Part shown: one piece after another, positions 2,712 to 45,232 of the stretch | Layout of the letters: each line of letters opens with the position of its first letter | Numbering within the stretch: the first letter of the stretch is position 1 | Assembly: GCF_024267655.1 (NCBI RefSeq) | Contig: NZ_CP100595.1 | Location: 992,001 to 1,056,000, forward strand | Direction: 5' to 3' | Source: Arcobacter roscoffensis | GTDB taxonomy: Bacteria; Campylobacterota; Campylobacteria; Campylobacterales; Arcobacteraceae | DNA length: 64,000 bases | Made by a program: the position numbers and the translations under genes | The notes under the pieces: model-generated | Databases searched by the model: none | What the model was told of the DNA's origin: nothing | What the model saw: the letters and a program-made list of their open reading frames with translations, nothing else

Positions 2712-4403
2712 ATGAGTATTGGTTTACAAGCATTTTTTGCTGCATTACCTATATTTTTAGCTGGTATTTTACTAGTTGGTTTAAGGGTTTCTGCTAAGAA
2801 AGCAATGCCTTTAGTTTATATAGCAACAGTTGGTGTTGCATTTGTTGTGTGGGAAGTTTCTTTTAATAGAGTTATGGCTTCAACTATTCAAGGTCTACTT
2901 ATAACAGTTGCTGTTTTATGGATTATTTTTGGTGCAATTTTACTTTTAAATACACTAAAACATTCAGGTGCGATTGCTGTAATTAGACAAGGTTTCAACA
3001 ATATTAGTCCTGATAGAAGAGTACAAGTTATTATAATTGCATGGTTATTTGGATCATTTATTGAGGGTGCTTCTGGATTTGGTACACCTGCTGCGATTGC
3101 TGCACCACTTTTAGTTGCTATTGGTTTCCCGGCAATGGCTGCTGTTATGGTTGGTATGATGATTCAAAGTACACCTGTATCTTTTGGTGCTGTTGGAACG
3201 CCTATTTTAATAGGAGTAAATAAAGGTTTAGATGCTCAAGGAATAGGGCTTGACTTAGAAAGTATTGGTTCGTCTTGGGATGTTTATTTACAAATTATTA
3301 CTTCACAAGTTGCAATTACTCATGCAATTGTTGGTACTTTAATTCCTTTATTTATGACTGTAATGTTAACTAGGTTTTTTGGTGAAAATAAGTCATGGAG
3401 TGAGGGCTTAAGTATTTTACCTTTTGCTATTTTTGCAGGACTTGCGTTTACAATTCCTTATGCTTTAACAGGTGTTTTCTTAGGTGCTGAGTTTCCATCA
3501 TTAATAGGTGCTTTAGTTGGACTTCCAATAGTTATGTTTGCAGCTAAAAAAGGTTTCTTAGTTCCTAAAAAAGCTTGGGATTTTGCTCCAAGAGAGAAAT
3601 GGCCTACATCATGGGTTTCAAAAATAGAGATGAAATTAGACGCAATGAGTGCAAAAGTTCCAATGTCTTTAACAAAAGCATGGATTCCATATATCTTAGT
3701 TGCAGTGATTTTAGTAATTACAAGAGTTAGTGATGAGGCTAAAGCGTTTGTTAAATCTTGGATTATTCCATTTAAAGATATTTTAGGTGAAAACTTAGGT
3801 TATTCTATCACTCCACTTTACTTACCAGGGGGTATTTTAGTATTTGTAGCCCTTGTTACTTATTTCCTACATAAAATGGAATTTAAAGAGATGAAAGAAG
3901 CTATAGGTGAGTCTTCAAAGGTTATGTTAGGTGCTGGTTTTGTACTTATTTTTACAATTCCATTAGTTAGAATTCTAATTAATTCAGGTGTAAATGATTC
4001 TGGATTTGATTCAATGCCAGTTGCAATGGCTAATTTTGTAGCTTCATCAGTTGGAGATATATATCCATTATTTGCTCCAATGGTTGGTGCTTTAGGTGCA
4101 TTTATTGCAGGTTCAAATACAGTTTCAAATATGATGTTAGCACAGTATCAATTTGGTGTTGCAGATGCACTAGGTGTATCAACAGCCTTTATGGTAGCAC
4201 TTCAAGCAGTTGGAGCTGCTGCTGGTAATATGATTGCAATTCATAATGTTGTTGCAGCAAGTGCAACTGTTGGTCTTTTAGATCAAGAAGGGCAAACATT
4301 AAGAAGAACAATTATTCCTACAATCTATTATTGTTTATTAGCAGGTATTATCGGACTTGTTGGTATGTATGTATTAGATGTGGTTGATCCACTTATGAAA
4401 TAA
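2712..4403 (+). CDS. lctP: L-lactate permease (LctP/LldP family)
   Basis: The 563-residue protein is hydrophobic throughout, with a dozen or more transmembrane helices. It carries the family segments [21 protein letters not shown] (about residues 114-134) and the C-terminal [19 protein letters not shown]. The family imports lactate, and often glycolate, with protons. AGGAGG lies five bases before the ATG. The gene stands alone, between a divergent promoter region and a hairpin terminator. No lactate dehydrogenase genes are adjacent, but the window carries a LUD-domain protein and an FAD 2-hydroxyacid oxidase far downstream. The transport direction and substrate are from the family. Confidence 0.93.
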
Positions 4404-4429
4404 AGAAAAGAGATTTAATCTCTTTTCTT
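4403..4429 (+). terminator. Hairpin terminator after lctP
   Basis: A perfect 13-bp inverted repeat (AAGAAAAGAGATT / AATCTCTTTTCTT) begins at the lctP stop codon, with a one-base centre. The right arm is T-rich. Confidence 0.7.
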
Positions 4430-4507
4430 AAACTACTATTTTAACCTCTTTATAACCTCTTTTTTGATAATCTAAATCATAATTTATATACATAGGTAAC
4501 TAATTTT

Positions 4508-6439
4508 ATGTTAAATAAACTTTTAGAGAAAAAAGAACTTTTATTTGGAAAAAAAGAGTCATTAGAAGAGCTTGTAATAAAAGATCCTTTTAATGAAAAA
4601 AAGCTTCAAAAAGCAATAGATGCTTATGATTTAGACTTAAATAACCAATACTTACTTAAGCTATGTATACAGAACAACTCTTATGAAGCTTTAAGTTTTC
4701 TTATAGAAAAAGTAGGCTTTAAAATAGACAAACTAGATGTAAATAAAGAAAACCTATTATTCTTAGCTATAAGAGAAAAAGTTAATGAGTGTTGTAAAGT
4801 CTTATTATCAAATAATATTGATATTAATCAAGCAAATATAAACAGCATTACACCCTTGCATCTTGTAACTAAAAGTGGCATGGAAGACATATTTGATATT
4901 ATCACAGATAGAGTTGACAATCTTGAAATAGAAGATAAAGACGGAAGAAATATTCTTTTCTATGCAATACAATCAAAAAACTTTGAAATTATAAAAAAAG
5001 TATTTCAACTAACATCTATAAAACTTAACTTCAAAGACAATCAAGACAATACAATTGTTCATATAAAAGAGATTACAGCAAATCTTGACTTATTTAAATT
5101 TTTCGTAAGTAAGGGATTAAATGTAGATAGCATAAATAAAAACAATGAAGATTTTTTATATTTAAACTGTTTAGATTTAGATGTTCCAGATGAACTTTTT
5201 ATATCTTTTTTACAAAAAAGTAATTTAAAAAATAGAAAGTATGGATTAAATGAAGAGTCTATTTTAATGAAAATAGTAAAAAAAATACTTTCAATTGATA
5301 TACAAGTTCTAGAAAATAAAGGTTTAGTTACTAAGTATCAAGATAGACTTATTACCTTTATCGAACATGGGGTAGATGAAAATAGCTTGAATAGTGAAAA
5401 TGAAAACTTTTTATTTGATGTTGTAAGAGCAAAAGATGATTTAGTTTTAGAGTTTTTATTAAACAGAACAAAAGTAAATATTAATCAAATTAATAATCAT
5501 GGTCAAAACTTACTTGACTTAGCAATCTTTAATGGAAAAGTAAATGTTGAATTAGTTAAAAAGCTAGTATATACAAACATAAATTGTACTGTAAAAGATA
5601 AAGATGGATTAACAATAGTTGAAAAACTTGTAGATGTTATATTAAGTGAAGATATTCCAAATAGAGTAAGAAAAATAGGGAAAACAAAAAGTGCAAAAAA
5701 TGTAAACTATACTCAAATTTTAACTTTTATTTTAGATTATACAAAAATTGATATAAATCAAATTATGTTTGAGGCTGAACCTATAGTATTTGAGATAGGA
5801 AAATCTTTTCATGTTCCATTATTAGAAGTATTTAAAAAACATGGTGCAAATTTAAATATAGTAGGTCAAAAAGATAAACTTACTATTTTTTATAAGGTTT
5901 TAGAAGCAGGTAAAGATGCAAAAGATGAAAGAGCACTTTTTTTAAAAATGTTAAAGTATTTAGTTCTATGTGATGTTGATATTGACCATAAAGATTCACA
6001 TGGTGGAAATGTAATACATAAAGCAATTTTAGATCACGATTTACAAGTTGTAAATATTCTAACTCTAAGAGTTAAAAATTATAAAGCAAGGGATAAAAAA
6101 GGAAGAACTTATATTCATAATACAATTTGGAAAAATAAAGCAGATATTTTGAAAAAAATAGCCTTTAAAAATAAAGACTTGATGAATATACCTGATAAGT
6201 TTGGTTTATTACCTATAAATTATGGCGTTATAATGGGAAAAAAAGAAGTTGTATTTGCTTTAATAAAAATGGGTGCTTATTTAAATAATCCTTATAATGT
6301 AAACGAACAATTTAAAGAACAATTCTTTTCAAAACTTGGAAAACTTGAGGATATTTTGAGTTCAACAATGACTGAAAATGAGAGATCTCTAATGACAGAA
6401 CTAGTAAGAAGTATGCAAAAAGAACTTGATATAGAATAA
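4508..6439 (+). CDS. Large ankyrin-repeat protein, copy 1
   Basis: The 643-residue protein is built of degenerate ankyrin repeats. Typical units are DVNKENLLFLAIREKVNECCKVL, NINSITPLHLVTKSGMEDIF, DKDGRNILFYAIQSKNFEIIKKV and HGQNLLDLAIFNGKVNVELVKKL. It has no signal peptide or membrane helix, so it should be cytoplasmic. It shares its whole layout with the next gene, including the N-terminal EELVIKDPFNEK and the C-terminal VNERSLMT-like end (here TENERSLMTELV). Such proteins are usually interaction scaffolds. The partner is unknown and no catalytic domain is visible. Confidence 0.85.
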   Translation: MLNKLLEKKELLFGKKESLEELVIKDPFNEKKLQKAIDAYDLDLNNQYLLKLCIQNNSYEALSFLIEKVGFKIDKLDVNKENLLFLAIREKVNECCKVLLSNNIDINQANINSITPLHLVTKSGMEDIFDIITDRVDNLEIEDKDGRNILFYAIQSKNFEIIKKVFQLTSIKLNFKDNQDNTIVHIKEITANLDLFKFFVSKGLNVDSINKNNEDFLYLNCLDLDVPDELFISFLQKSNLKNRKYGLNEESILMKIVKKILSIDIQVLENKGLVTKYQDRLITFIEHGVDENSLNSENENFLFDVVRAKDDLVLEFLLNRTKVNINQINNHGQNLLDLAIFNGKVNVELVKKLVYTNINCTVKDKDGLTIVEKLVDVILSEDIPNRVRKIGKTKSAKNVNYTQILTFILDYTKIDINQIMFEAEPIVFEIGKSFHVPLLEVFKKHGANLNIVGQKDKLTIFYKVLEAGKDAKDERALFLKMLKYLVLCDVDIDHKDSHGGNVIHKAILDHDLQVVNILTLRVKNYKARDKKGRTYIHNTIWKNKADILKKIAFKNKDLMNIPDKFGLLPINYGVIMGKKEVVFALIKMGAYLNNPYNVNEQFKEQFFSKLGKLEDILSSTMTENERSLMTELVRSMQKELDIE

Positions 6440-41530: not shown

Positions 41531-42333
41531 TTAAAAATCCAATGGTGATTTAATATCACCTTTATTTAATTCTTTTACTACATGTGTATATATCATCGTA
41601 GTTTCTATAGATTTATGTCCTAAAAGTTCTTGAATGCTTCGTATATCTGTACCATTCTGCAAAATAGGAAAAACATATTGCCATTTGGTTTCAAATTTTG
41701 CTTTTGGAAATTTTCGTTCAAGTGCATAAGGTATATATACACTTCCATATCCATTTTCTAAATCTTTTTGGTGTATTTCTTTTACTTTCTCAACTTGAAT
41801 TTTAAGTTCATCTTTTATTTTTAGTGGAAGTGGTAAAGTTCTATCTTTAAGTGACTTACTATCCCAAATATAGATTTTATCGTATCCGAAATCAATATCT
41901 TTTATACGTATATATTGTGCTTCTTTCATTCTTAATCCACACCCATACATAAGTTTAACTATGAGTTGATAAATACCTGTCATATTTAATATAATACTTC
42001 TTACTTCATTTATAGTTAAAACTACAGGAATATGCTTTCTTTTGCTCTTAGTGCTTGAATATTTTGGTCTTTTAAAGAGATATTTAAAACTTGTTCATAT
42101 AAAAATAATATTGCATTAAAGGCTTGGTTCTGTGTTGTAGGAGATACGTTTAGTTTTGTGGCAAGATAAGTCAAAAACTGTTCTATTTCGATTTTTCCCA
42201 TTTCTATAGGGTGCCTTTTCTTATGGTAAATAATATATCTTTTAGCCCAGCCGATATAGCTTTGTTCTGTTTTTATACTGTAGTGCTTAAATCGTATTTT
42301 GTCTCTCATAATATCTAGTAATTTTTTACCCAT
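41531..42333 (-). pseudogene. intI: Integron integrase (IntI-type tyrosine recombinase), inactivated
   Basis: The N-terminal part (42333 to 42022) reads HYSIKTEQSYIGWAKRYIIYHKKRHP and [19 protein letters not shown], typical of IntI. Past a run of four T on the plus strand (42040-42043) the frame shifts. The next frame continues [19 protein letters not shown] directly into [11 protein letters not shown], as an intact integrase would, so one base was probably lost from an A-run. The C-terminal part keeps the catalytic arginine region and [16 protein letters not shown] with the tyrosine. It joins WQYVFP directly to LQNGTDIRS, so about 50 residues including the HxLRH box are missing. The end KSPLDF is intact. 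Confidence 0.9.
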
Positions 42334-42655: not shown

Positions 42656-42949
42656 ATGTTAACACAACAAGAATTACAAATTAAAATTGATAGATATACA
42701 AAACAACCATTTATGTATTATGTTGAATATCCTGAAAGTGATGATAATGAATATTTTTGGAAAGATGGTTTGGGAGAATTACAATTCATTCCAGATATGA
42801 CAATGGATCATTTAAAGGCATGTATTAATAAAATCAAAAAAGATATAAAAGAATTTTATGATGAAGATGTTCGGGATATCCTTATTCCTATTGCAGAAAA
42901 AAAACAAAAGCAATTACAAGCAGAATTAATGAGAAAAGCAAATAGTTAA
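42656..42949 (+). CDS. Cassette gene 1, unknown 97-residue protein
   Basis: The protein is acidic and soluble, with no signal peptide or membrane helix. It has a beta-like first half (FMYYVEYPESDDNEYFWKDGLGELQFIP) and a charged helical second half (HLKACINKIKKDIKEFYDE; PIAEKKQKQLQAELMRKA). AAAGGAG lies 6 bases before the ATG, and GTTATAC, a possible recombination core, 15 bases before it. It is the first gene of the array and the one closest to the putative array promoter. I recognise no family. Confidence 0.7.
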   Translation: MLTQQELQIKIDRYTKQPFMYYVEYPESDDNEYFWKDGLGELQFIPDMTMDHLKACINKIKKDIKEFYDEDVRDILIPIAEKKQKQLQAELMRKANS

Positions 42950-42952
42950 AAT

Positions 42953-42969
42953 ATAACAAGTCATTGGAG
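42953..42969 (+). other. attC left half (right half missing)
   Basis: ATAACAAGTCATTGGAG, four bases after the cassette-1 stop, closely matches the left half of the complete attC at 43877 (ATAACAAATCAGTGGAG). No matching right half ending in GTTAT is found before the next gene. The site looks truncated by a deletion or fusion, and its GGAG now serves as ribosome site of the repeat gene. Confidence 0.6.
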
Positions 42970-42978
42970 AAAAATATT

Positions 42979-43215
42979 ATGAGTAATCAATACAATGGAA
43001 AACGAATTTATGAGTATGGGCGTGGTTCTCAAGCTAAATATGAGATTCGCGGTAATTTAATTCATGAGTATGCTCGTGGTACACAAGCAATCTACGAAAT
43101 TAGAGGCAACCTGATTCATGAATATGCTAGAGGAACACAGGCTAAATATGAAATTAGAGGTAAGTATATCCATGAATACGCACGTGGAACTCAAGCAGTT
43201 TATGAAATACGTTGA
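42979..43215 (+). CDS. Cassette gene 2, four-fold 18-residue repeat protein
   Basis: The ATG at 42979 follows GGAG by 9 bases and gives 78 residues. After SNQYNGKR the protein is four copies of an 18-residue unit, for example IHEYARGTQAIYEIRGNL, the last lacking its final three residues. At DNA level the 54-base units differ at many synonymous sites (CGT, CGC, AGA for arginine), so the repeat is old and kept by selection. It resembles the small proteins named four-fold beta flower proteins, in which each unit forms one blade; this name is from memory and unchecked. The function is unknown. CGT and CGC codons are unusual among its neighbours. Confidence 0.8.
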   Translation: MSNQYNGKRIYEYGRGSQAKYEIRGNLIHEYARGTQAIYEIRGNLIHEYARGTQAKYEIRGKYIHEYARGTQAVYEIR

Positions 43216-43239: not shown

Positions 43240-43875
43240 ATGAATGATGTTTTAACAACAATATTTTATGGAGTTATTTCAAGTATTATTGCTGCGATAA
43301 TACTTGAATTAGCTAGAAAAAACTCTTCATGGATACCATCTCCATCCGAAAACAAATCATTAAAAAACACATTAGAATCCATAGAAGAAAATGATGTAAG
43401 ATCAAGAAATAAAGAAAAATTAAATCGAACTTTCTTTAATATGTTTTTTTATTTTTATACGTTCATGTTATTATATTTAGCATTACTTATGCCACCACTG
43501 TTAAAAGGTGGATTATTAAATAAAGGTGTTGTTTATTTAGATGATGCTAGATTTATAGGTGCTTATTTACCACACATTCTAATACAGTCGAATATTGTAC
43601 AATCAGTTTTTATTGGAATAGCTATTGTATTTTATCTTCCTCTTTTATTAATTGTAAATAAATGCTCGCTATATATTGCACTTATAGTTGATAAGTTTAA
43701 GCTTGTGGACTTTTACGAATGGAGAAGAATTCAAACACTTATTTTTATGGTATTTTCATCAATAATAGCCATACTATCTATATGGCTTTATAATGAAATG
43801 AGTATAGGAAAGGCATTTTCTTCATTTTTAACATTTATATTTTTAGGTTTTGTACTTGCATCAGGTAAGCGATAA
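43240..43875 (+). CDS. Cassette gene 3, unknown multi-pass membrane protein
   Basis: The 211-residue protein has an N-terminal helix (about 5-23), a charged loop (about 25-62), then about four further helices (about 67-87, 122-145, 165-183, 190-208). No family is recognised. It starts 24 bases after the repeat-protein gene with AAAGGAAGC as ribosome site, and no attC separates the two. They therefore probably share one cassette. Its own attC follows within two bases of the stop codon. Confidence 0.72.
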   Translation: MNDVLTTIFYGVISSIIAAIILELARKNSSWIPSPSENKSLKNTLESIEENDVRSRNKEKLNRTFFNMFFYFYTFMLLYLALLMPPLLKGGLLNKGVVYLDDARFIGAYLPHILIQSNIVQSVFIGIAIVFYLPLLLIVNKCSLYIALIVDKFKLVDFYEWRRIQTLIFMVFSSIIAILSIWLYNEMSIGKAFSSFLTFIFLGFVLASGKR

Positions 43876-43876
43876 A

Positions 43877-43943
43877 CATAACAAATCAGTGGAGTCAATA
43901 AATTACCCTGCAGGCAATTTATTGGCTCATTTTAAACGTTATC
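43877..43943 (+). other. attC site B (about 66 bp)
   Basis: The outer boxes are ATAAC (43878-43882) and GTTAT (43938-43942). Inside, GAGTCAATAAATT pairs with AATTTATTGGCTC over 13 bp with one T-G wobble around an 11-base loop. Asymmetric unpaired segments lie between stem and core. This is the standard attC geometry, like short Vibrio repeats. Confidence 0.85.
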
Positions 43944-44488: not shown

Positions 44489-44621
44489 TGATAACAAAAC
44501 ATTGGAAAGAAAAACGAGGGTGTACTTGCGGTTTTAAAGTTATAAATTGTAAGTAGAATTTAAAAGTGGTATTGAATAATCAGATGGAATCTTTCCTCGT
44601 TTTTCAATTCAACCGTTAGCA
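44489..44621 (+). other. attC site C (about 130 bp)
   Basis: The outer boxes are GATAAC (44490-44495) and GTTAGC (44615-44620). TTGGAAAGAAAAACGAGG (44502-44519) pairs with CCTCGTTTTTCAATTCAA (44595-44612) at 15 of 18 positions. The long central loop is about 75 bases. The site begins three bases after the stop of cassette gene 4. Confidence 0.85.
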
Positions 44622-44634
44622 TAGGAAATAATCA

Positions 44635-45108
44635 GTGAATATCCCAAATATCCCAACAGACAATCTTTATAAGTTTTTAAGTATATCTAGCATGTTAATT
44701 ACCATTTTTTTCTTTGTTATCCCCTTATACCTTAAACACGAAATAGATATAAAAATAATATATCTTACTGGAGAAATGGATTTAATTGAAAAAAAGATAT
44801 CTATTACTTCTAATGATCTAGATATACTTGATAAACTAGCTCAAACAGAAGATAAGCAATCATTAAAATATATTGAATTAGAAAAAGAAATCAAAAAAAA
44901 CAATCTTGTTAATGAGAATAGTTTAAATGAAATTCGTGTTAAATCTACACTTATAGCATATTATAAGAAAAATCTTTTTTATCTTGCTATAATTTCTTTT
45001 ATTATATTGTTCGTAAGTATTCCAATGACTTTTATTGGGTTTAGGCTATGGTACATAAAGATTCAGAAACCATTAGATACAGAATTGTATACTAACTTAA
45101 AGTGCTAA
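44635..45108 (+). CDS. Cassette gene 5, two-helix membrane protein with charged loop
   Basis: The 157-residue protein starts at GTG, 8 bases after AGGAAA and just inside the cassette after attC C. A helix (about 15-33), a charged, probably coiled-coil loop (about 35-105, KHEIDIKIIYLTGEMDLIEKK; KYIELEKEIKKNN) and a second helix (about 112-135) make a hairpin-like membrane protein. No family is recognised. Its stop codon lies inside the start of attC D. Confidence 0.72.
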   Translation: MNIPNIPTDNLYKFLSISSMLITIFFFVIPLYLKHEIDIKIIYLTGEMDLIEKKISITSNDLDILDKLAQTEDKQSLKYIELEKEIKKNNLVNENSLNEIRVKSTLIAYYKKNLFYLAIISFIILFVSIPMTFIGFRLWYIKIQKPLDTELYTNLKC

Positions 45109-45232
45109 AACCTTGGAAGAAAAACAAGGGTATACTGCGGTTTATTTTAACTTTTTAGAACAAAAAAGCTCAAATGAAAATTTGAAATTATCAAGTGGAA
45201 TCATACCCTTGTTTTTCAAGTCCAACGTTAGA
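45104..45232 (+). other. attC site D (about 130 bp), end of array
   Basis: GAAAAACAAGGGTAT on the left (within 45113-45133) pairs perfectly over 15 bp with the right arm ATACCCTTGTTTTTC (45203-45217), extended by TTGG/CCAA. The right core is GTTAGA (45228-45233). The central loop shares GCGGTTT and GTGGAATC with attC C, so the two sites are related. No gene follows in the next 150 bases. Confidence 0.83.

Follow-up and report, generated by a model that had tools for sequence, protein, structure and literature searches.

We regard P0001, a 78-residue repeat protein of Arcobacter roscoffensis, with moderate confidence as an unnamed, helix-free, four-bladed mini-barrel of beta-flower-like type, which is carried as mobile accessory cargo and probably acts as a symmetric binding module. 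Its gene lies in a stretch of 64,000 nucleotides that was analysed as a whole and is called the window here (contig NZ_CP100595.1, positions 992,001 to 1,056,000). The protein goes back to an ancient four-fold internal duplication that is held by purifying selection. In our model, each unit would form one beta-hairpin, and the four hairpins, like four petals, would come together as a small closed barrel with eight strands, of the beta-flower type. Many described beta-flowers have a C-terminal helix inside the barrel; this protein would lack it. Its hairpin tips, four in number and nearly equivalent, would be presented to one ligand or partner. In A. roscoffensis, P0001 would be accessory cargo that is read from the first cassettes of an integron together with a downstream membrane-like protein. 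A wider claim is put forward tentatively, since we find it rather doubtful: P0001 may belong to a superfamily, not described before, of beta-flower mini-proteins that have strictly four blades and no helix and that spread through distant bacterial phyla by way of small plasmids and integron cassettes. Their tips would co-evolve within each protein, which would make them a four-fold symmetric recognition module that might serve in defence or regulate the co-travelling gene. The preferred reading of P0001, if true, would extend the beta-flower fold to its shortest helix-free four-fold form and tie it to gene mobility. In any case, a soluble-looking protein of this length lends itself well to structural work and binding assays.

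Four units and the age of their duplication

The repeat ORF (Table 1) translates into MSNQYNGKRIYEYGRGSQAKYEIRGNLIHEYARGTQAIYEIRGNLIHEYARGTQAKYEIRGKYIHEYARGTQAVYEIR, in which residues 7 to 78 are four units of 18 residues in exact register. TRF, run on the whole window, returned a 54-nt tandem array at 43005-43196 with 3.6 copies; its score of 174 is the highest in the window (runner-up array, 88). Translation, register and tandem array thus confirm the protein of four 18-residue repeats that a sequence-only reading had described. The unit formula given there was right as to the repeat and has been refined to G-x-x-I-(H/Y)-E-Y-x-R-G-(S/T)-Q-A-x-Y-E-I-R, with the addition of an alternation at unit position 14, which is polar in odd and hydrophobic in even units. 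Across proteins, position 14 is hydrophobic in 4 of 16 odd units and 15 of 16 even units (Fisher p 0.0002, uncorrected for relatedness), which points to a two-fold symmetry laid over the four-fold one. The net charge of P0001 is +5, and neither a signal peptide nor a transmembrane segment is evident. The GC content of 42979-43215 is 36.7%, that of the window 28%, and that of the neighbouring cassette ORFs 24-27%.

Table 1. Features of the integron region in the window, and intact relatives of P0001
Feature	Position	Strand	Basis or remark
Integron integrase remnant, two ORFs, broken	41531..42333	-	TIGR02249 matches; comparison with L004
Preceding cassette ORF, 97 aa	42656..42949	+	fused to the repeat-gene cassette through loss of half an attC
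attC left half (TATAACAAGTCATTGGAG...), right half missing	42950..42978	+	intact counterpart in L002/L004
Four-unit repeat protein P0001, 78 aa	42979..43215	+	translation, TRF, dN/dS, AlphaFold, seven intact four-unit homologues
Unit 1 GKRIYEYGRGSQAKYEIR	42997..43050	+	strands 9-12, 19-24 (AlphaFold)
Unit 2 GNLIHEYARGTQAIYEIR	43051..43104	+	strands 27-30, 37-42 (AlphaFold)
Unit 3 GNLIHEYARGTQAKYEIR	43105..43158	+	strands 45-48, 55-60 (AlphaFold)
Unit 4 GKYIHEYARGTQAVYEIR	43159..43212	+	strands 63-66, 73-77 (AlphaFold)
Second ORF of the repeat-gene cassette, 211 aa	43240..43875	+	hydrophobic segments, no family match
Complete attC closing the repeat-gene cassette	43873..43942	+	bottom strand folds, z -3.1
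attC-like site of the next cassette (175-aa ORF)	44494..44622	+	fold z -1.6
attC-like site after a 157-aa ORF	45100..45230	+	fold z -4.0
Four-unit relative L003/H1, Vibrio cyclitrophicus conjugative plasmid			match at 44%
Four-unit relative L004, Arcobacter MAG			match at 55%; integron cassette
Four-unit relative L005, Desulfobacterales MAG
Four-unit relative L006, Acidobacteriaceae MAG
Four-unit relative L007, Acinetobacter
Four-unit relative L014, IMG/VR contig			integron cassette
Four-unit relative L015

Between the units of P0001, identity is 63-76% in DNA and 67-94% in protein, and the codon-level comparison gave a pS of 0.71-1.0 and a pN of 0.06-0.19. Units 2 and 3 have all but 1 of 18 residues in common, whereas about 10.5 of their 11.7 synonymous sites differ, and arginine is encoded by a mixture of CGT, CGC and AGA. 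At positions with the same residue, codon identity between units is 0.41, compared to 0.43 after shuffling of synonymous codons within the gene, and therefore the synonymous sites are fully randomised. Saturated synonymous sites together with rare replacements argue for old units and for purifying selection on the residue pattern. Both the synonymous divergence, including the three arginine codons, and the old duplication with a selected protein pattern had been proposed from the sequence, and both withstood the analysis. The duplication in P0001 is old, and recent slippage or conversion is absent. Furthermore, close relatives with DNA-identical repeats were not found within its family. Selection for differing codons between units, as a means of avoiding repeat recombination, was rejected, as codon identity equals the shuffled expectation.

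Could P0001 nevertheless be a low-complexity or decaying repeat from recent slippage, without a folded product? Degenerate copies are known: a two-unit remnant in a Methylophilaceae MAG has ATT where the start codon should be (L008), the repeat gene of a Desulfobacterales relative is frameshifted (L031), and another is interrupted by an in-frame stop (L029). However, synonymous sites are saturated while residues are conserved, the unit count is exactly four in all intact members, and AlphaFold gives a confident fold for both P0001 and its relative L006, which makes this explanation highly improbable.

The integron setting

In the window, the repeat gene lies beside the remnant of an integron integrase. 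This remnant is a pseudogene: compared to the integrase of L004, its reading frame is shifted near 42025, and an internal stretch with the catalytic HxxR region has been deleted. The integrase of L004 itself (4257-5242, reverse strand) likewise falls into two ORFs that overlap, of 179 and 196 aa, and therefore the L004 integron may be inactive, unless the MAG is in error. The first cassettes of L004 (5554-5907) and of the window (42656-42949) encode different small proteins.

The half attC in front of P0001 has lost about 60-70 nt compared to the intact site of L004 and does not fold into a hairpin. Its GGAG stands 9 nt before the ATG of P0001 and probably serves as the Shine-Dalgarno sequence. 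Because the complete attC follows the 211-aa ORF, the repeat gene and this ORF make up one cassette. A stretch of 65-70 nt of the complete site is 88-95% identical to sites in other genomes of the same bacterial family, where near-identical attC sites cluster with up to six per ~10 kb (G032, G085, G083, G079, G059 and others); judged by these sequences, chromosomal integrons seem to be widespread in this family. The cassette of the window is thus closed by an attC and lies in an array that adjoins the intI remnant and has further attC-like sites.

Carriage on integron cassettes is seen independently in two of the seven intact relatives. In L004, the repeat gene opens a two-gene cassette adjoining intI. 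In L014 (1-560), the gene makes up a cassette by itself, flanked by attC boxes, with terminase-like and portal-like ORFs next to it; by these names, which are read from translations, the contig looks phage-like, and phages that carry integron cassettes have been described (PMC9892861). The intI remnants, the family-wide attC sites and the two cassette-borne relatives bear out the earlier suggestion of an integron cassette.

Relatives, carriers and neighbouring genes

Searches by tblastn and profiles yielded seven intact relatives with four 18-aa units (Table 1). The family is unnamed and scattered across very distant bacteria and mobile DNA. It occurs in 2 of 104 genomes of the window's bacterial family and in 1 of 250 genomes of the class of the Acidobacteriaceae member; the Acinetobacter relatives are those of Acinetobacter haemolyticus and a second Acinetobacter genome, and close homologues number 2 among 175 genomes of this genus. 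Integron cassettes, plasmids and other kinds of mobile DNA carry the family, and its intact members always have four units, which in L006 are mutually 28-61% identical. At the tip positions 8-10, likeness is 0.46-0.54 within proteins and 0.23-0.37 between proteins, with A-R-G-T at three tips of P0001 and M-S-A-S in several relatives. Taken together with the saturated silent sites, this points to old homogenisation followed by selection, or to parallel selection on the four tips.

A sister family with longer loops has four units of 22-23 aa with H-x-x-G-W tips. It resides on small plasmids of E. coli and Enterobacter and in another Acinetobacter, and more members came from genomes searched in the classes to which the Acinetobacter and Desulfobacterales members belong; none was seen in the viral scan. 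Profile comparison with hhalign aligned the two families with their unit registers matched (probability 98, E 1.5e-13), and on this basis they appear homologous. The plasmid-borne sister members have an excess of codon identity between units, indicating recent homogenisation of the units there. Intact plasmid-borne cousins in E. coli are now unannotated or annotated on the wrong strand. On small E. coli plasmids, the true four-repeat ORF (L018, 2187-2486, forward strand) is unannotated, and the RefSeq ORF lies on the opposite strand (2142-2648). ORFs of this type are present in 14 of 5,426 complete E. coli genomes, all of them plasmid-borne and several from O111.

No catalytic pattern is evident in P0001, and a symmetric predicted barrel with four equivalent tips would be a non-enzymatic, probably cytosolic binding module. 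It is imaginable that the repeat protein is instead the first half of a two-gene unit, an antitoxin-like protein, chaperone or regulator acting on the downstream product. The next ORF starts 4-42 nt downstream in the window, L004, L005 and the Vibrio plasmid, abuts the repeat gene in L006, and shares one cassette with it in the integrons of the window and L004; in L004 this partner resembles DUF6988/DUF5677 and has a weak match to the candidate defence family PDC-S52. We consider such a unit unlikely, however. The partners are mutually unrelated (a membrane-like ORF, DUF6988, DUF6236, an acyl carrier protein and DUF6998) and the gene is also found alone, in both Acinetobacter loci and in the one-gene cassette of L014, which makes a fixed gene pair unlikely. 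Furthermore, the acyl carrier gene of L031 is intact although the repeat gene beside it is broken.

The very patchy spread in the family of the window and in Acinetobacter, and the nature of the carriers (integron cassettes, a conjugative plasmid, small mobilisable plasmids and a phage-like contig), would also suit anti-phage or anti-plasmid cargo; the symmetric barrel would then bind some part of the invading element. But patchiness is compatible with any accessory function, PADLOC gave nothing convincing for P0001 (one chance-level match), and no defence neighbours were seen besides PDC-S52, so that we hold this role to be quite improbable. Matches in PHROGs were weak and scattered.

Predicted fold and its comparison with known barrels

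The preferred reading, a mobile binding module built as a mini-barrel, draws on the predicted structure. AlphaFold2, run with six sequences, predicts P0001 as eight strands in four hairpins (pLDDT 89.4, pTM 0.78), and the divergent L006 is likewise predicted with four hairpins (pLDDT 88.4, pTM 0.77). Four confident hairpins in each agree with the four-bladed beta structure anticipated from the sequence, and neither protein is predicted to be disordered. VIA-align matched small beta-barrel proteins weakly (Z 4.8-4.9, 3.5 A, 69-78 residues), the best structures being DUF4909 (4lqz), Atu4866 (2jmb) and potempin E (8ehc), as well as a part of PvdP (6rrq; Z 5.3, 3.2 A, 72 residues), all with Z values of 4.8-5.3, a range which the tool calls common. 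We take these four matches to be closed barrels. Since they span nearly the whole chain, we infer closure of the predicted barrel, in which four hairpins would form an eight-stranded barrel. Foldseek found nothing at E <= 0.001 in the PDB and BFVD; Tubby and beta-flower entries were not listed in it, which excludes nothing. Searches of PDB sequences by phmmer and profile had no matches.

Sequence models give a mixed answer on the relation to beta-flowers. PF21786 has a cut-off of 34 bits. Its matches to 6 of 8 members stay under this value, at 15.5-22.5 bits (E 1e-4 to 0.016), and it matches none of 10 register-permuted controls. P0001 itself matches none of the Pfam beta-flower models, PF21784 (Bflower) matches none of the members and has no match in the genome of P0001, and hhalign against three campylobacterial PF21786-type proteins returned nothing. 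These three proteins (L022 1432-1770, L023 822-1160 and L024 1378-1719, all on the reverse strand) are built of 20-aa KDGVIRDGSS units and share a conserved C-terminal segment with YHFLIKKI at its end. Myb_Rap1, a helical model, scores like PF21786 in 5 of 8 members. As AlphaFold predicts beta hairpins and Myb domains consist of helices, we judged these matches spurious. Weak scores on repeat proteins are thus unreliable alone, and membership in the beta-flowers is not established. The proposed relation accordingly stands in part, with the sub-threshold matches of members and the clean controls on its side and the unmatched P0001 against it. We call P0001 beta-flower-like, a likeness that is supported but not proven, and do not call it a member.

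The beta-flowers are PF21784, PF21785 and PF21786 of clan CL0395 and have a semi-conserved [DNEQ]xxG motif at the hairpin tip; the Tubby C-terminal domain, a related barrel built of hairpins, belongs to the same clan (Durairaj et al. 2023, PMC10584680). P0001 resembles beta-flowers in its tandem hairpin units of ~18-20 aa, in its symmetry, which is four-, five- or six-fold in that group, and in the small symmetric beta-barrel that is inferred for it, and its 8 predicted strands in 4 hairpins fall within the 8, 10 or 12 short antiparallel strands of that fold. At the tips, longer-loop members are of the D-G-W-x-G type, and the short tips (MSASQ, ARGTQ) are without the motif. P0001 ends at its last strand, with no C-terminal hydrophobic helix inside the barrel; as this helix is present in many but not all beta-flowers, its absence is not disqualifying. 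What sets the P0001 family apart are scores below the Pfam cut-off, a helix-free C-terminus, a unit number of four only, and units of 18 aa with Y-M-S-A-S-Q or Y-A-R-G-T-Q tips or of 22-23 aa with H-x-x-G-W tips. For Tubby, P0001 yielded neither a sequence nor a structure match; with its 12 strands arranged about a central helix, Tubby differs from the helix-free P0001 and its 8 short strands. DUF4909, Atu4866, potempin E and the part of PvdP are without sequence similarity to P0001, and topology is the most that they would have in common with it. Integron cassette proteins with novel folds (PMC3548836) are likewise small, cassette-borne and without annotated relatives; the structures considered from that source are helical or alpha+beta and have no internal four-fold repeat, unlike P0001.
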